Shown here: one piece after another, positions 31,245-43,583 of the stretch | How positions within the stretch are numbered: the first letter of the stretch is position 1 | How the letters are laid out: every line of letters begins with the position of its first letter | Assembly: GCA_025451535.1 (NCBI GenBank) | Contig: JANWKE010000137.1 | Span: 1 to 59,175 of the forward strand | Length of the DNA stretch: 59,175 bases | Direction of reading: 5' to 3' | DNA from: Verrucomicrobiia bacterium | GTDB lineage: Bacteria; Verrucomicrobiota; Verrucomicrobiia; Limisphaerales; UBA11358 | The notes under the pieces: generated by a model | The model's input: the letters and a program-made list of their open reading frames with translations, nothing else | Databases searched by the model: none | What the model was told of the DNA's origin: nothing | Program-made: the position numbers and the translations under genes

Positions 31245-31847
31245 CTACCAATCTTTGATTGGGCGTTGATCGTTCGGGGGCGGGGTTTGCGGTTTCAATT
31301 GAAGGAACTGTTCGTCACCCTTTTGCGCATCCAACAATCGTTTCGCCGCTTCCGGGGTCATTTGCCCGGCGGCCAGCGGCTGGTCCGGTTGATCCGGGTT
31401 GCCCTGCCTTTCGGTACTTGGTTCCCCGTCAGACGCTTGCGGTTGCCTCTGATTTTGCGGTTTGGTGTTTTGTTGATCGGACTGGTTCTGTTCGTTCTGG
31501 TTTTGCGACTGCGAATTTGGTCGCGGGGATTTCTGATTCTGCTGGTTGTTCTGCGATGGCTTTGATTGCGATTGATTCGGCTGCGACTGCTGATTTTGGT
31601 TTTGTTGGGACTGGTTGTTCTGCGACTGCTGCTGGCTTTGTTGCTTCAACAGTTCATACAGCTTTTTGAGCTTCACATCCCCGGGATACTGTTTCAGCCC
31701 GGTTTCCACCGATTCCAGCGCCTGGGGGATGTTGTTGGAAATATAGGAGTGCGCGCCGCGGTTGAAAAAATCATCGGCGGATTGGGCGCGTGCTGCCTGC
31801 CCGGCCAGCAGCAGGCTAACGCTGAGGAGGAGTAATAATCGCATCAA
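31245..31847 (-). CDS. Exported TPR protein with Gln/Asn-rich tail, last gene of the Bat operon
   Basis: 200 aa. The signal peptide is at residues 2-21 (MRLLLLLSVSLLLAGQAARA). A short TPR-like unit follows (DDFFNRGAHSYISNNIPQAL ... QYPGDVKLKKLYELL). Residues about 68-150 are almost entirely Gln, Asn, Ser and Pro, an intrinsically disordered tract like those in BatC proteins. The end (MTPEAAKRLLDAQKGDEQFL) is helical and resembles the C-terminus of BatC/aerotolerance TPR proteins. The start overlaps the upstream VWA-TPR gene by 32 bp. It is probably periplasmic and works with the VWA proteins. Confidence 0.75.
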   Translation of the reverse strand: MMRLLLLLSVSLLLAGQAARAQSADDFFNRGAHSYISNNIPQALESVETGLKQYPGDVKLKKLYELLKQQSQQQSQNNQSQQNQNQQSQPNQSQSKPSQNNQQNQKSPRPNSQSQNQNEQNQSDQQNTKPQNQRQPQASDGEPSTERQGNPDQPDQPLAAGQMTPEAAKRLLDAQKGDEQFLQLKPQTPPPNDQRPIKDW

Positions 31848-33501
31848 TGTCCTTTAATTTTTTGATGTAGTCCTGGAATTTTTTGGCCGCGATTTGATTT
31901 TGGGCCAGACTTTCCATGATTTCCAGGGCGCGGTGATATTCATTGCGCCGGACTGCGTCGTCGGCTGCCAGCTTGGCCCGGCGCATGACTTCACGAAGCT
32001 CGGCAATCAAGCCGATCTGGTGCTTCACAAAAGCCAGATTATAGGCAACATCGGCGTCGTTCGCGTTCAATTCCGCCGCGTGCTCATAATTCCTGACCGC
32101 CTGTTGCCAGCGTTCCTCGACCGTATTCAAGCCGTCCGCGTCCGGCTCGAACTTCATTTCGCCCAGGCGATACAGCGTGTTGCCCAGATTGTAATACGCC
32201 TGTTGTTGCAGGTTTAAGTCCGGCGACAAGGTCGCCATCTGAAATTGGTTCAGCGCCTCGTCGTAATTCGTCGCGCGATAGGCCGCCGCCCCGGCATTGA
32301 AGACCAGCCGCAAGTCATTGGTGTGAATTTGGGCCAGTCGCTCAAATTCCTGCAGAGCGTTCGTGTAGTTGCCGAGGTGGTACTCGCGCAACGCAGACGA
32401 CGGCGAGGCCTGGGCGGCAACCGGCAGCAACAAAATTCCAAGGAATGCCGCAACCACCGGCGCTGTGACTTTGGACGGTGGACGGTGGACGGTGGACTTT
32501 TTCCGCTCCGGCAACAACATTTCCGCGAGCAACAACAAAACGGCCAGGGCCAGCGGCCACTGGTACTGCTCGTGATAACGGCGCACCAGTCGTTCTTCAC
32601 CTTCCGATTTCGGCAACGGGGCCAGGCCGCGGTCGTAGAGCATTTCCATCGTGTTCGCCCCGCGCAACGGCAGATAAAAACCTCCCGTGGCGGAACCGAT
32701 TTGCCGGAGCAGTGTTTCGTTCAGGTGCGATTTCACCACATTGCCATCCGGGTCCCGGACATAATCCGAATTGCCATTCGCGTCGGTTATCCGCAACAGG
32801 GTCCCATCCGCCGTTCCGATGCCGATGGTGAAAACTTTCAGGCCCGCCTTGGCCGCCGCCTTGGCGGCGGCGAGCACCTCGCCGGAATTGACGTTGTCCT
32901 CGCCATCCGTGATCACCACCAGCACTTTGAAATGGTCGCCTTCCTTGAAGGCCGCTTGCGCGGTCTGGATGGCCGTGGCCAGCGACGTGCCGCCGAGGGG
33001 CAGGGTGTTAACGCTCAGATTCTGCACGCATTGTTGAAAGGCCGTGTTGTCGTACGTCAACGGGCATTCCAAAAAGGCGTCTCCGGCAAACGCCACCAGG
33101 CCGAGCCGGTCCGGTTTCGCCCGCTGCATCAAATCCAGCGCGGCAAGTTTGGCGCGTTCGAGCCGGTCCGGCGCAATGTCCTCGGCCAGCATGCTTTTGG
33201 ACGTATCAATCGCCACCACGATGTCCAGGCCGCGCCGTTCAATCTTCTGCAGATCGAATCCGTACTGCGGCCGCGCCAGTGCCACGATCAGCAGCGCCAC
33301 GGATAAAATCAAACAACCGAACCGGATTTTGCGGCGCGCCGGGGAAACACCGACGGTGAGCGCCGACAACAACCGTGTCTGAATGAATTGCGCCAGCAGC
33401 CGTTGCCGCGTGCGCAACGCCCGCCAAAAGAACACCGCCAGCGCCGGCGGAATTACCAGCAGCAGCCAGAGCAAATGTGGAGCAGCAAACTGCATCTTCA
33501 A
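31816..33501 (-). CDS. VWA-domain membrane protein fused to TPR domain (BatB-BatC type fusion)
   Basis: 561 aa. Residues 1-75 carry two transmembrane segments (LLWLLLVIPPALAVFFWRAL; CLILSVALLIVALARPQYGF). The VWA domain (about 90-270) has a MIDAS motif IVVAIDTSKSMLAEDI and LVVITDGEDNVNSGEV. A third membrane segment (about 312-330) ends the BatB part. The linker K-S-T-V-H-R-P-P-S-K-V-T (about 334-346) is encoded by a GGACGGT heptamer tandem. It is followed by what looks like a second signal sequence (VVAAFLGILLLPVAAQASPS) and TPR repeats (about 370-500), which equal BatC. So two ancestral genes appear joined through intergenic repeat DNA. It sits in the inner membrane and belongs to the MoxR-associated Bat system (aerotolerance/envelope stress). 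Confidence 0.87.
   Translation of the reverse strand: MKMQFAAPHLLWLLLVIPPALAVFFWRALRTRQRLLAQFIQTRLLSALTVGVSPARRKIRFGCLILSVALLIVALARPQYGFDLQKIERRGLDIVVAIDTSKSMLAEDIAPDRLERAKLAALDLMQRAKPDRLGLVAFAGDAFLECPLTYDNTAFQQCVQNLSVNTLPLGGTSLATAIQTAQAAFKEGDHFKVLVVITDGEDNVNSGEVLAAAKAAAKAGLKVFTIGIGTADGTLLRITDANGNSDYVRDPDGNVVKSHLNETLLRQIGSATGGFYLPLRGANTMEMLYDRGLAPLPKSEGEERLVRRYHEQYQWPLALAVLLLLAEMLLPERKKSTVHRPPSKVTAPVVAAFLGILLLPVAAQASPSSALREYHLGNYTNALQEFERLAQIHTNDLRLVFNAGAAAYRATNYDEALNQFQMATLSPDLNLQQQAYYNLGNTLYRLGEMKFEPDADGLNTVEERWQQAVRNYEHAAELNANDADVAYNLAFVKHQIGLIAELREVMRRAKLAADDAVRRNEYHRALEIMESLAQNQIAAKKFQDYIKKLKDIDAIITPPQR
32473..32497. repeat. Heptamer tandem repeat, unit GGACGGT, inside the BatB-BatC fusion gene
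   Basis: 3.6 exact copies of GGACGGT. It encodes the linker between the VWA and TPR parts. Related heptamer tracts of other sequence occur at six more places in the window, mostly at gene ends or starts. Confidence 0.85.
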
Positions 33502-33511
33502 ATCGTAAATT

Positions 33512-34516
33512 TCATGGCAATTTCCTGAAGACCGTCTCTCCCAGCGTGATTTCCAGGATCAGCAACACGAGGCCACACGCCACCACCCATGGAAACAATT
33601 CGCGGTATTCCGTAAATTTGCTGATGACTGCCTCCGTTTTTTCGAGCTTGTTGATTTCGGCATAGATTTGCTGGAACCGTTCCGCCGTATCGGCGCGGTA
33701 GTATTTCCCGTCGGTAATCTGTGCGATTTGTTTCAGCGTGGTCTCATCCACGTCCACCGGCTCGTTCTGATAAATCGTTTCACCCGTGAAGGGATTTTTG
33801 CCGACCGGCATCGGCGCGATGCCGTTCTTGCTGACGCCGATGGTATAGACCTTTACGCCCAACGCCCGCGCCGCTTGCGCCGCCGTGAGCGGATCAATAT
33901 TACCCGAATTATTCTGGCCGTCGGTCATGAGAACGACGATTTTGCTTTTGGCCTGCACCGCGCGCAATTGGTTGAGCGCCGTGGTCAAGCCGTCGCCGAT
34001 GGCCGTTGCGTTGGGATTGATGGCGCCGATGTTGAGCCGGTTCAAATCTTCAATCAGAAAATCGTGATCCAGCGTCAGGGGCGTGCCGATGTACGCCTGC
34101 GTGGCGAAGAGGACCAGTCCGATGCGATCGTTGGGCCGCTTGTCAATGAAGCCTTCCAGAATGGAACGCGCCATGTTGAACCGGTTGACGCGGTGGCCAT
34201 TCACGACGAAATCCTCTGAGACCATGCTGCCGGACATGTCGAACGCCACCATAATGTCTATGCCGCTGGCCTTGACTGTCGTCTGGCTCTTCATCAACCG
34301 CGGCTGCGCCAACGCGACAATGAACAGCGCCAGCACCAGCCAGCGTAACGCCATTAAAAACGCGCCTGTCCGCGACCGGCGCACGCGGGTCAATCCTTCC
34401 ACCAGCCGCACCGACGAATAAAGAAACGCCGGCGGTTGGCCGCGCCGCCCCTTCAGCCACGCCAGCAGCGGCAGCAACAACAGCAGCAGCAAAAGATATG
34501 GGTGCGCGAACGTCAT
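33512..34516 (-). CDS. VWA-domain membrane protein (BatA type)
   Basis: 334 aa. Two N-terminal hydrophobic segments (LLLLLLLLPLLAWLKG; ALRWLVLALFIVALAQ), a VWA domain with a complete MIDAS (IMVAFDMSGSMVSEDF, Thr in the loop, VVLMTDGQNNSGNIDP) and a C-terminal membrane helix (VVACGLVLLILEITLG). This is the BatA arrangement, with the VWA domain exposed to the periplasm. The gene overlaps the preceding membrane protein gene by 4 bp (ATGA) and is 10 bp before the BatB-BatC gene. MoxR ATPases are thought to act with VWA proteins as metal-dependent chaperone systems. Confidence 0.92.
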   Translation of the reverse strand: MTFAHPYLLLLLLLLPLLAWLKGRRGQPPAFLYSSVRLVEGLTRVRRSRTGAFLMALRWLVLALFIVALAQPRLMKSQTTVKASGIDIMVAFDMSGSMVSEDFVVNGHRVNRFNMARSILEGFIDKRPNDRIGLVLFATQAYIGTPLTLDHDFLIEDLNRLNIGAINPNATAIGDGLTTALNQLRAVQAKSKIVVLMTDGQNNSGNIDPLTAAQAARALGVKVYTIGVSKNGIAPMPVGKNPFTGETIYQNEPVDVDETTLKQIAQITDGKYYRADTAERFQQIYAEINKLEKTEAVISKFTEYRELFPWVVACGLVLLILEITLGETVFRKLP

Positions 34517-35085
34517 GCGGGTGCCATTTGGCTTTGAACTTTGGACACCGGACTTTGGACTTCTTTTGGCTCGGTTTCTTCGACCAGCCGGACGGCGGAG
34601 CCATGCAACTCGCGCAACTCCGGCTCGCCCGGTTCGTATCTGGCGAATTTCACGAGGTCACAGCTTTCCAGAAATTGGCCGAGGCTTTCCTTTTGTTCCG
34701 GTGACAGCAAATCTGTCGTACTCAGTTCCCGCAGAAATTCCTCAGTCGTGCGTTCCGGCGCATGAAAATCAAATTGCTCTTCGAGATAAGCACGAATCGT
34801 GTCGGAGACCAGAATGCAAAACGGTTTGGGCTGGGCGAGGAGTGCGAGTGCTTCCTCCAATTGTTGTTTCGCGCGAAGATGCGCCGGCACCGGCGGTTCC
34901 ATCTGAATTTGCGAACGCCGTTTCCGCCAGTATCGCCAGGTAAAATACAAAATGGCCAGAACCGCCAGGAGGACCAGCGCCCACCCGATCCGTTCCCAGA
35001 CATTTGGGATGGGCACCGGCGGCTTGATGTCGCGAATGTCGTTCGCATTCGCAATGGCAGCCTGGGATGTCGCGTTTGAAATCAT
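34513..35085 (-). CDS. Single-pass membrane protein of the Bat operon (DUF4381-like)
   Basis: 190 aa from the ATG at 35085; a TTG at 35091 is possible. One transmembrane helix (about 31-50, WALVLLAVLAILYFTWRYW) with a basic stop, then a soluble helical domain (HLRAKQQLEEALALLAQPKP; YLEEQFDFHAPERTTEEFLR). This matches the size and layout of the small DUF4381-type membrane proteins found between DUF58 and VWA genes in MoxR operons. The last 15 residues (V-Q-S-P-V-S-K-V-Q-S-Q) come from a heptamer repeat (34532-34566), so the C-terminus has probably been extended by repeat DNA. It overlaps the VWA gene by 4 bp. Confidence 0.75.
   Translation of the reverse strand: MISNATSQAAIANANDIRDIKPPVPIPNVWERIGWALVLLAVLAILYFTWRYWRKRRSQIQMEPPVPAHLRAKQQLEEALALLAQPKPFCILVSDTIRAYLEEQFDFHAPERTTEEFLRELSTTDLLSPEQKESLGQFLESCDLVKFARYEPGEPELRELHGSAVRLVEETEPKEVQSPVSKVQSQMAPA
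34532..34566. repeat. Heptamer tandem repeat, unit CTTTGGA and variants
   Basis: Four 7-nt units (CTTTGAA, CTTTGGA, CACCGGA, CTTTGGA) at the 3' end of the membrane protein gene, just before the BatA start. The repeat is translated as the C-terminal residues of the upstream protein. Confidence 0.75.
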
Positions 35086-35099
35086 GATCAACGGCTACG

Positions 35100-35284: not shown

Positions 35285-36193
35285 TCATCCTCGCAACCTC
35301 CGCTTCTCCCGCGCCTCGAAAAACCGGCCCAGCGCCGCCGCGTAAGGTTCGTCGGTGCGTAATTGAATGGAATCGATGCCCGATGACCGCAATTGCCGGG
35401 CGACCTCGACATACTGTTTTTCCTGACGTAGCGCGAACGCGTCGCGACTCGCTGCCGGCGCGGTATTGAGTTCCACGATTTCACCTGTTTCGGCATCTTC
35501 CAATATTAATCGGCCCAGCGCCGGCAATTCCATTTCGTAACGGTCCGCGATGTGGACAGCCACGACGTCGTGTCGCCGGTTGGCCATCCGCAGGGCGATT
35601 TGCGTTTGTGGTGGCAGTGTCCCGTTACCTTCCGGCATTAAGAAATCCGAAATCACCACCGCAATGGCCTTGTGCGGCAACACGCGGCCCATGAATTCCA
35701 GCGCGTGGGCCAGATCCGTTCCGCGCCGCTTCGGTTTGAAATACAATACCTCGCGGATGACCCGCAGCACGTGACCACGGCCTTTTCGTGGTGGAATGAA
35801 TTTTTCCACGCCGTCGGTGAACAGCAGCAAGCCCACCTTGTCATTATTGCGAATGGCGGAGAAGGCGAGCACGGACGCAATTTCGGCGGCCAGTTCGCGT
35901 TTGGATTGCTCGCGCGAGCCGAACAACCCGGAGCCGCTCACATCCACCACCAGCATCACCGTCAGTTCGCGTTCCTCGACGAATTTCTTGATGAACGGAT
36001 GATTCATCCGCGCGGTGACATTCCAGTCGATTGCGCGCACGTCGTCACCGGGCTGGTATTCGCGCACCTCGTCGAAGTTCATGCCCTGTCCTTTGAAAAC
36101 GGAATGATACTGGCCGGCAAGCGTTTCGGTCACGAGCCGGTTCGTGCGAATCTCGATCTGCCGGATTTTTTTGAGAATTTCGCGAGGAATCAT
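35285..36193 (-). CDS. DUF58 domain protein of the MoxR/Bat operon
   Basis: 302 aa, cytoplasmic or peripheral. [20 protein letters not shown] is the DUF58 signature, followed by [20 protein letters not shown] and a VWA-like MIDAS start [20 protein letters not shown]. Residues about 150-300 complete the VWA-like fold. DUF58 proteins almost always accompany MoxR ATPases and VWA proteins and are thought to be adaptors or chaperone partners. Here MoxR is upstream, but a DUF998 gene lies between them, which is unusual. The next gene is 199 bp downstream across a palindrome pair. Confidence 0.92.
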
Positions 36194-36980: not shown

Positions 36981-37970
36981 TCACGGCACCGGCAGTTCAT
37001 CAAAGATTTTCTGGACGACCGTTTCGCTGGTCTTTTCCTCGGCCTCGGCTTCGTAGGTGATGGCCACGCGATGGCGCAGCACGTCCATACCGATGCTTTT
37101 CACGTCCTGTGGCGTCACGTAACCACGGCCTTTGAGAAAGGCGTACGCCTTCGCCGCCAGCGTCAGGTTGATGGTCGCGCGCGGCGACGCGCCGAGCTGG
37201 ATGAAATCCTTCACGGCAATTTTGTAGTGGTCAGGGTCGCGCGTCGCACAGACCAGGTCTACGATGTAATCCTTCACCTTGTCGTCCACGTAAATGTCGT
37301 TGATGACCGCGCGCGCCTTGAGAATATCCTTCGGATCAACGACCACGCTCGCGGTGGGCGTGCCGGAGGTTTTGGCCATCAGATCGAGAATGTGCCGCTC
37401 CTCGTCCCGCGACGGATAGCCGATCTTCAATTTCAACATGAACCGGTCCACCTGCGCCTCGGGCAGCGGATAGGTGCCTTCCTGCTCAATGGGATTCTGG
37501 GTGGCGAGGACCAGGAACGGTTCTTCCAGTTTGAACGTCTGTTCGCCAATGGTGACCTGCTTTTCCTGCATCGCTTCGAGCAAGGCGCTTTGCACCTTGG
37601 CCGGCGCACGGTTGATTTCGTCCGCCAGAATCAGGTTGGCGAAAATCGGCCCTTTGCGCGTGCTAAAGCCGCCGGATTGCGGATTGTAAATCTGCGTGCC
37701 GATGACGTCGGCGGGCAGCATGTCGGGCGTGAATTGCAGCCGCGCGAACTTGACGTTGATGCAGGCGGCGAGCGATTTGACCGAGAGGGTTTTCGCCAGG
37801 CCGGGCACGCCTTCGAGCAGCACGTGGCCGTTGGCGAGCAGGCCGATGACGAGCCGTTCAACCAGATATTGCTGGCCGACAATGACTTTGCCGAGCTCGT
37901 TGAATAGTGGATGGGTGAATGCGCTGGCTTCTTTGACGGTTTCGTTGATGGCGGAGATTCCCGTGTTCAT
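36981..37970 (-). CDS. MoxR family AAA+ ATPase
   Basis: 329 aa. Walker A is GHVLLEGVPGLAKTLSVKSL. Also present: FTPDMLPADVIGTQIYNPQS, Walker B ANLILADEINRAPAKVQSAL, LEAMQEKQVTIGEQTF, sensor 1 FLVLATQNPIEQEGTYPLPE and AQVDRFMLKLKIGYPSRDEE. The C-terminal lid ends in YVTPQDVKSIGMDVLRHRV. This is the MRP subfamily of MoxR ATPases, which power chaperone-like reactions with VWA/DUF58 partners. Those partners follow in the same operon. Upstream come BatE- and BatD-like genes, with a 134-bp gap that contains a GTAG palindrome pair. Confidence 0.95.
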   Translation of the reverse strand: MNTGISAINETVKEASAFTHPLFNELGKVIVGQQYLVERLVIGLLANGHVLLEGVPGLAKTLSVKSLAACINVKFARLQFTPDMLPADVIGTQIYNPQSGGFSTRKGPIFANLILADEINRAPAKVQSALLEAMQEKQVTIGEQTFKLEEPFLVLATQNPIEQEGTYPLPEAQVDRFMLKLKIGYPSRDEERHILDLMAKTSGTPTASVVVDPKDILKARAVINDIYVDDKVKDYIVDLVCATRDPDHYKIAVKDFIQLGASPRATINLTLAAKAYAFLKGRGYVTPQDVKSIGMDVLRHRVAITYEAEAEEKTSETVVQKIFDELPVP

Positions 37971-42432: not shown

Positions 42433-43509
42433 GTGCATCGTGATCCGCTCAAGTCCACCGCCCGCCTCGTCGTGAAACTCGGCACGGGCGTGCTCACGGA
42501 CAGCCGCAAGCAGCCCGATCCGGCACAGTTGGAACAGCTCGTGGCGCAAATCGCCGGGCAACGCCAGGCGGGCCGGGAAATTGTGATCGTCACCTCCGGC
42601 GCCGTCGGCGCCGGCATGGGCGCGCTGGGATTGGACAAGCGCCCGACCGGACTCGCCGAAATGCAGGCCTGTGCCGCCATCGGCCAGTCCCGCCTCATGG
42701 CCACCTACGCGGAACTGTTCGCACGGCACAATCTGCACGTCGCGCAGGTGCTGCTCACGCATGATGACCTCGAACATCACGAGCGCCATCTCAACGCCCG
42801 CAACACGCTGGTCACCTTGCTGGGCCGCGGCGTGGTGCCGGTTATCAATGAAAACGACGCCGTTTCCATCACCGAATTGAAATTCGGCGACAATGACAAG
42901 CTGTCCGCCCTGGTCGCGTCCTTGTTGCCCGCTGATTTGCTCGTAATTCTCACCACCGTGGACGGCGTCATCGAAAATTTCGGCAAGCCCAATCCAAAAA
43001 CCATTTCCGTCATCGAAACCATCGACTCCGCCCTGGAAAAAATCGCGCGCGGCACCGACAGCGAAACCGCTGTGGGCGGCATGAAATCGAAGATTGAAGC
43101 CGCGAAAATTGTTGTGCGTTCCGGCATCCCGCTCGTCATCGCCTCGGGCCGGAAGAAAAATGTGCTGGCGCAAATCCTCGCCGGCGAAGATGAAGGCACA
43201 CTCTTCGTGGCGCCGGAAAAGCGGCTTCAAGGGCGCAAGCGCTGGATCGCGTTTTTCCATCATCCCAAGGGCGCGTTGATTGTGGACGACGGCGCGAAGC
43301 AGGCCTTGCAGGAGAAGGGCAAGAGCCTGCTGCCGCCGGGGGTCGCGCGCTGCGAAGGCGATTTCGCGGCCGGCGACGTGGTGCGGATTTGTGATTTGAA
43401 CGGCACGGAATTCGCGCGCGGCATTGCGCGATTCGATTCCGCCGCCGTCCGCGCCCGCAAACTGCCCAAGGAGGAACTCGTGCACCGGGATGATCTGGTG
43501 ATTCTTTGA
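42433..43509 (+). CDS. proB: Glutamate 5-kinase
   Basis: 358 aa from a GTG at 42433. The first step of proline synthesis: ATP + L-glutamate to L-glutamyl 5-phosphate. Seen: RLVVKLGTGVLTD, EIVIVTSGAVGAGMGALGLD, AACAAIGQSRLMATYAELFA (in part), NDAVSITELKFGDNDKLSAL, LLVILTTVDGVIEN and GGMKSKIEAAKIVVRSGIPL, all matching the amino-acid kinase fold of ProB. Residues about 270-350 are a PUA domain (ALIVDDGAKQALQEKGKSLL). Length is close to E. coli ProB (367). The proA gene is not in the window. The stop is followed at once by the heptamer hairpin 43508-43583. Confidence 0.95.
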   Translation: MHRDPLKSTARLVVKLGTGVLTDSRKQPDPAQLEQLVAQIAGQRQAGREIVIVTSGAVGAGMGALGLDKRPTGLAEMQACAAIGQSRLMATYAELFARHNLHVAQVLLTHDDLEHHERHLNARNTLVTLLGRGVVPVINENDAVSITELKFGDNDKLSALVASLLPADLLVILTTVDGVIENFGKPNPKTISVIETIDSALEKIARGTDSETAVGGMKSKIEAAKIVVRSGIPLVIASGRKKNVLAQILAGEDEGTLFVAPEKRLQGRKRWIAFFHHPKGALIVDDGAKQALQEKGKSLLPPGVARCEGDFAAGDVVRICDLNGTEFARGIARFDSAAVRARKLPKEELVHRDDLVIL

Positions 43510-43583
43510 TTTAAGATTTACGATATACGATTTACGAGCGCACTGACGGTTGGTGCGTAAATCGTATATCGTAAATCGTAAAT
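43508..43583. repeat. Heptamer-built perfect hairpin between proB and mazG
   Basis: Units GATTTAC, GATATAC, GATTTAC on one side and CGTAAAT, CGTATAT, CGTAAAT, CGTAAAT on the other form a 22-bp perfect inverted repeat (43515-43536 with 43556-43577) around a 19-nt loop. The tract starts in the proB stop codon and ends with the mazG ATG. No T-run follows. Confidence 0.85.

Follow-up and report, generated by a model that had tools for sequence, protein, structure and literature searches.

Heptameric tandem repeats of the kind considered here include the cyanobacterial STRRs. Arrays of GGGAATC in Xanthomonas and of GGGGA(T/C)T in Nostoc (PMC4692102), and of TAACTGA in the Beggiatoaceae (PMC4679880), have been described, and in the passages of these papers drawn on here such arrays are dispersed runs of tandem 7-bp units, mostly intergenic and sometimes within genes, while heptamers are in excess among the long repeats of many bacteria (PMC4692102, PMC4679880). 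The Xanthomonas heptamers also form inverted pairs, and an earlier idea quoted in the same passages is that heptamers may be favored by the length of DNA held by the polymerase (PMC4692102). The GGGACCG elements of Geobacter metallireducens consist of four tandem heptanucleotides, occur in 49 copies between and within genes, at times more than once per gene, and are presented in the cited section as one sequence family with a proposed regulatory role (PMC2700814). The hmw heptamer contingency repeats of Haemophilus are likewise 7-bp tandem repeats that affect a gene (PMC8262952). The Rickettsia palindromic elements (RPEs) and the GTAG/CGTC REPs are in-frame repeats in functional genes, palindromic and conserved in sequence (PMC3733652). 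For the Bat proteins, whose function was termed elusive, batB and batC are fused in one gene in Leptospira biflexa, and pathogenic leptospires are said to be without the fusion (PMC3557215). As far as the cited passages go, heptamer excess, heptamers within genes, in-frame palindromic repeats, and fusion of batB with batC are all already known.

We analyzed a stretch of 59,175 nucleotides (the window; positions 1 to 59,175 of contig JANWKE010000137.1, assembly GCA_025451535.1) from an uncultured Limisphaerales-type verrucomicrobium, in which an operon of the order moxR-DUF58-DUF4381-batA-batBC carries a single gene for BatB and BatC (Table 1). The neighbors of the fused gene (MoxR, DUF58, and batA, from Pfam and the ORF list) were those of bat operons of the aerotolerance type. 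Translation of the batB-batC frame gave a single ORF with zero internal stops, and Pfam placed a BatA N-terminal domain at residues 3-78 and a VWA domain at 93-254, with TPR_11 at 464-497 above the cut-off and TPR_2 at 401-423 below it; PF07584, PF00092, and PF13414 were thus all above the cut-off in one chain, combining a BatA-type N-terminus, VWA, and TPR. The VWA motif D99-T-S-K-S103, which we take to be the DxSxS metal-site motif, was invariant across 20 aligned proteins. Because relatives start at the ATG, a product of 559 amino acids is likelier than one of 561. TRF, translation, and Pfam together bore out the initial annotation's description of a BatB part ending in K-K, a heptamer-coded S-T-V-H-R-P-P-S-K-V-T, a signal-like segment, and TPR repeats. 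A gene at 31245-31847 (minus strand) overlaps the end of batB-batC; its product begins in a signal-like manner and includes a long stretch rich in Q, N, and S, and its one Pfam match was weak and below the cut-off.

Table 1. Bat operon genes, parts of the fused gene, and in-gene heptamer arrays, in window coordinates.
Feature	Position	Strand	Remarks
Fused batB-batC gene	31816-33501	minus	561 codons from TTG; conserved ATG two codons later
BatB part, residues 1-335	32497-33501	minus	BatA-type N-terminus, VWA domain, last membrane helix, K-K
Heptamer array, linker from S336	32472-32497	minus	3.7 perfect copies, coding-strand unit TCCACCG
Hydrophobic signal-like segment, residues 347-365	32407-32463	minus	A-Q-A end, then S-P; predicted signal peptidase I site
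BatC part, residues 366-561, TPR repeats	31819-32406	minus	
batA (VWA) gene, same operon	33512-34516	minus	Pfam
Degenerate heptamer array, C-terminus of DUF4381 gene	34527-34562	minus	5.3 copies, 70% matches, encodes ..EVQSPVSKVQSQ..
DUF4381 gene of bat operon	34513-35091	minus	Pfam
DUF58 gene of bat operon	35285-36193	minus	Pfam
MoxR-type AAA ATPase gene of bat operon	36981-37970	minus	Pfam

The linker array had the top score of all eight period-7 rows returned by TRF for the window (period 7, 3.7 copies, 100% matches, indels 0), and it encoded S336-T-V-H-R-P-P-S-K-V-T346 straight after K334-K335. No inverted partner was found within 150 bp of it, and three tandem copies of TCCACCG occurred once in the 4.4-Mb assembly, which sets it apart from RPEs and REPs as described in the cited passages, with their palindromic units in many dispersed copies (PMC3733652). 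The related TCCAAAG, again in three copies, was present at two other sites in the assembly, one within mfd and the other called intergenic. The suggestion that the linker was the sort of repeat found between genes nearby therefore held for the 7-bp period and the class of array, but not for the unit. Changes of 1 or 2 units truncated the batB-batC frame in silico at 381-421 amino acids and a change of 3 units restored it, so that only changes of 3n units kept the frame, in agreement with the earlier statement that such changes restore it. The array in the DUF4381 gene was the second in-gene heptamer of the bat operon. The window gene and that of L. biflexa have the batB-batC fusion in common, and for the latter a repeat linker goes unmentioned in the passages cited (PMC3557215). 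Elsewhere in the window, inverted heptamer arms GATTTAC and GTAAATC lay at 43508-43537 and 43556-43583, an intergenic, hairpin-like pair 18 bp apart.

Period 7 predominated in the genome well beyond this locus. At a threshold of at least 15 consecutive period-7 matches, 368 kb of the genome held 7 arrays and none of the other periods between 4 and 15 had any; three order-2 Markov simulations produced no array of 13 matches for any period in this range. At score 14, 614 kb yielded 24 arrays of period 7, with 8 for the other periods from 4 to 15 in total (4 of them period 14); the sole negative control, a single 50-kb stretch of E. coli K-12, contained no period-7 array. Score 12 gave 35 arrays in the same 614 kb, of which 21 were called intergenic, so that 7-bp units were dispersed and far above other periods, as in heptameric SSRs. 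These 35 arrays had 18 distinct units, whereas one or a few units per genome are the rule for known heptameric SSRs in the passages cited (PMC4692102, PMC4679880). This diversity departs from the one or few unit families per genome of the STRR-like class, and the arrays are placed here by period class and not in a named STRR family. Among GTDB loci, 61 period-7 arrays were present in the 63 loci with BatB identity of at least 60%, 28 of which carried one, as against 8, 16, and 10 arrays of periods 6, 9, and 12, where arrays at multiples of 3 in named loci are expected of coding sequence. Farther off, 9 loci at 50-60% identity had 0 period-7 arrays and 8 loci below 50% had 2.

Two general properties of the arrays were considered and rejected as explanations. 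An inverted partner arm lay within 150 bp at 5 of the 35 arrays of the genome itself (control 0.15) and at 16 of 149 other arrays (control 0.85), so that an inverted-arm element, present at a minority of arrays, did not serve as a general explanation; hairpins may help at some arrays. The fraction of units that were open on one strand or both was 0.91 for the genome's own arrays and 0.99 for the others (genome heptamers, 0.96), and the fraction open on both was 0.37 and 0.60 (genome heptamers, 0.69). Open units were thus not in genome-wide excess, and a stop-free bias of all arrays was discarded. AGT/ACT, AAT/ATT, and GAT/ATC were enriched in the units and ATA/TAT and AGC/GCT depleted, a comparison of enrichment in which no rule for a unit grammar was found.

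Fusion was compared across 133 BatB loci, one assembly per species. Whole-genome searches together with fetched regions supplied 53 of the loci, and GTDB contigs supplied 80; many of these contigs carry Limisphaerales, Verrucomicrobia subdivision 3, or Pedosphaera in their titles. BatC lay downstream in 130 (L043, L151, and L153 were without it), and 39 loci whose BatB stretch was identical to that of a kept row were dropped, leaving 91 distinct loci. batB and batC were fused in 81 of these and split in 10, the latter including L135/L031, whose linker contains an N gap and which was entered as split with its state uncertain. Fused linkers, counted with the two preceding residues, spanned 7-39 residues (median 16) and were very different in sequence between species. 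Clear heptamer arrays (score of at least 15) were found in 6 of the 81 fused rows and in 2 of the 10 split rows (L143 and L145, with a weaker one in L142), and at a score of at least 10 there were 8 rows with 7 as the best linker period and 1 row with 12. Among the fused arrays, that of the window had the unit GTCCACC, those of L081, L087, L097, and L126 shared GTCCAAA, and that of the distant L152 had AATTTCA. The closest relatives, L078 (90% BatB identity) and L079 (82%), were fused through 33-nt linkers without a clear array; the window gene's four nearest rows were all fused, and the fifth was L135, called split across its N gap. The linker of L095 (12 nt) was 21 nt, or three units, shorter than that of L087 (33 nt); as the two are not sisters, this compares lengths and does not record a contraction or expansion.

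On the BatB tree, built from a single gene by a quick method with the root not inferred, the 8 heptamer rows needed 8 changes and the fused or split state needed 5. A clade uniting the five GTCC-unit rows was rejected (p-AU 0.0011, for a group chosen after data inspection), and a tree holding the three heptamer splits together was not (p-AU 0.152). Since most loci were fused while clear arrays were few and scattered on the tree, the fusion probably predates the heptamer arrays. Around the window gene, fusion is most simply the older state, with arrays appearing and vanishing, although the direction of change between fused and split rests on parsimony and not on proof, as the tree is unrooted.

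Positive charge is expected of a cytoplasmic loop ahead of a signal sequence. The net charge of the linker was +1 or more in 81 of 81 fused loci and +2 or more in 76, and a signal-peptidase-like site stood ahead of S-P in 70. This conservation of a basic linker and a signal-peptidase-like site suggests cleavage of the fused polypeptide, with BatB and a periplasmic TPR protein as the products, and signal peptidase I probably makes the cut at A-x-A/S-P. In the predicted structure, a model of modest quality (mean pLDDT 74.8, pTM 0.41), residues 331-355 had pLDDT below 50 between helices at 311-329 and 348-357, values that may also reflect the divergence of the linker in the alignment; the linker is probably a short, disordered, basic loop in the cytoplasm. 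Pooled heptamer strand-units were open and net positive in 30% of cases, open without positive charge in 46%, and interrupted by a stop in 23%. All six fused-linker arrays were open and positive by eye, although they are not six independent draws, as four share the unit GTCCAAA.

The age of the arrays was judged from the four species with GTCCAAA linkers, in which the fourfold sites of BatB were 49-64% identical while the arrays were perfect or nearly so, indicating that these arrays were newly made or newly homogenized. The recurrence of GTCCAAA in four of the six fused arrays suggests a retained seed besides new birth. The window gene, L078, and L079 all have linkers of 33 nt, and this equality of length, compared by eye, makes homogenization of an existing degenerate array the likely step at the window. 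In the three split loci with heptamers, the start of BatC was encoded by heptamer sequence: in L142 the batC start lay within an ATGA stop-start overlap, in L145 the junction had an ATGA overlap too (DNA by eye), and in L143 a TTG followed shortly after the batB stop. In L145, counting from a presumed start codon, heptamer sequence apparently also encodes the hydrophobic core (VWSLVFGVCLSVFGVWC) of the signal sequence of BatC. A heptamer can part genes as well as bridge them, and because L143, L145, and L142 sit among fused loci on the tree, the repeat there more likely accompanies splitting.

Arrays were also found inside conserved proteins. According to a crude gene finder, 14 of the 35 arrays of the genome lay inside ORFs, and ten array-bearing ORFs besides batBC all had Pfam families, from whose domains they were named: Mfd (three arrays), PriA, HemN, ValRS, UbiD, a RimO-like protein, a UDG-type glycosylase, a phosphodiesterase (two arrays), a TPR protein, and an outer-membrane efflux protein. 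In the efflux ORF the array may precede the true start, and in L175 an array covering residues 1-9 of the ORF is maybe upstream of the true start. Mfd and PriA recall the in-gene palindromic repeats, which are often in replication and repair genes according to the cited section (PMC3733652). Orthologues within the genus were examined in the best 30 loci each of the 46 (HemN), 47 (PriA), and 49 (Mfd) genomes with a match, comprising 17.4 kb of variable and 191 kb of conserved stretches. Period-7 arrays (score 9) fell in variable and conserved stretches at 11 and 0 in HemN, 15 and 0 in PriA, and 63 and 1 in Mfd (89 of 90 variable), an enrichment in loops that is partly circular because variable stretches were defined by divergence. 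The contrast between periods is the stronger point and is not circular: other periods from 4 to 13 in the same orthologues gave 13 arrays in variable stretches and 29 in conserved ones. Six of those 13 were period-8 arrays in HemN loops, which the heptamer account leaves unexplained.

Among the same best 30 loci, arrays were carried by 10 HemN, 9 PriA, and 20 Mfd orthologues, and distinct units numbered 10 among 11 arrays in HemN, 9 among 16 in PriA, and 37 among 64 in Mfd. Unlike the known heptameric SSRs, the units here changed between species in the same protein loops, and they were site-specific where the G. metallireducens elements, in the section cited, form one family (PMC2700814). The HemN loop ahead of the conserved H-N-V-N-Y-W held an insert that differed by species, with more heptamer peptides by eye than were scored; in Mfd, the insert at 285-295 lay between aligned pieces of a solved Mfd and that at 1066-1075 in a poorly aligned stretch. 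In the PriA of the genome under study (L077:8634-11525, plus strand, contig C188), Pfam placed a Y1_Tnp domain, of IS200/RAYT-like type, in frame over residues 257-368 (E 4.1e-5), and an HxH-type motif as in Y1_Tnp was seen in 3 of 30 PriA orthologues (L208, L209, and L212; best 30 of 47). By eye, the linkers of L127 (e.g., ..PHPGPLP..), L080, and L083 and the HemN loop of L200 resembled captured palindromic intergenic repeats.

We consider it likely that batB-batC is an old fusion in a lineage with recurrent, loop-tolerated 7-bp arrays, and that the array of the window is an embellishment of the fusion and not its origin. The linker loop would join the last BatB helix to a retained BatC signal sequence, and cleavage would yield BatB and a periplasmic TPR protein; as the chain would be cut by signal peptidase, an open frame, a short length, and basic charge would be all that the linker requires. 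Arrays of 7 bp with site-specific units would keep arising in the lineage, between genes and within protein loops, probably generated by slippage in DNA synthesis, and would then be homogenized, decay, or be replaced. Coding arrays would persist if the frame stays open and, at the batBC linker, if the loop also stays basic, and the window array would be a recently homogenized example. The initial annotation had instead proposed that separate batB and batC genes with an intergenic heptamer array were joined by slippage over 3n units. The array does share its class with the intergenic ones, such changes do preserve the frame in silico, and separate genes with heptamers at the junction, which it proposed to look for in relatives, do exist in L143 and L145, and more weakly in L142. 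On the tree, however, these heptamer splits are nested among fused rows, fusion is the usual state with linkers of many kinds and few clear arrays, and the nearest relatives are fused without one, which makes a slippage origin very unlikely. The converse picture, set against that proposal in the annotation, of every relative being fused through a conserved and non-repetitive linker, did not emerge either; most relatives were fused, but the linker was hypervariable.

Frame arithmetic of the same kind would suit a phase-variable switch, in which array copy number turns the BatC half on and off, as 1- or 2-unit changes truncated the protein and 3-unit changes restored it in silico. The 81 fused assemblies neither support nor exclude switching, being in frame by class definition, but the heptamer was not conserved at the site, where clear arrays are few, and we regard a switch as quite unlikely. 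Insertion of a ready-made heptamer element, RPE- or REP-like, from another locus is unlikely too: inverted arms exceeded their controls at both sets of arrays and the linkers of L080, L083, and L127 have a palindromic look, yet the window array lacked a detected inverted partner, its unit run is single-copy in the genome, and no insertion is needed to explain a linker whose length L078 and L079 share. Selection at the peptide level alone, favoring a basic linker with the DNA repeat as a by-product, agrees with the positive charge of every fused linker and with similar SKVQSP peptides in four lineages. Period-7 identity of the DNA would be unexpected from such selection, as 7 is not a multiple of 3, and the period-7 excess was found between genes too, leaving this explanation highly improbable.

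Beyond the preferred reading of an old fusion with recurrent arrays, we tentatively raise a broader possibility, to which we give somewhat less than even weight, that a standing process writes new 7-bp arrays whose units keep changing and are not copied from a single element. These would supply a frame-indifferent source of peptide for many flexible loops and linkers, and even for the batC signal core of L145, in the conserved proteins of the group; the source would be indifferent to frame because an array of at least 21 nt presents the same set of seven codons whichever frame is read. Among the matches listed in a literature search that covered few subscription papers, none dealt with heptamer arrays of Limisphaerales or Pedosphaera, with fused BatB-BatC joined through a repeat, or with heptamers that shift within the loops of conserved proteins, and site-specific, fast-changing heptamer units filling the loops of conserved proteins across a genus were unseen in print among those matches. 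If this account is true, a bacterial group fills protein loops through a DNA-level process with a 7-base step, and it would become possible to test directly how linkers, insertions, and hypervariable loops originate. It would also call for caution against taking such loops for functional motifs, and would provide a natural system for asking why heptamers are over-represented among the long tandem units of many bacteria.
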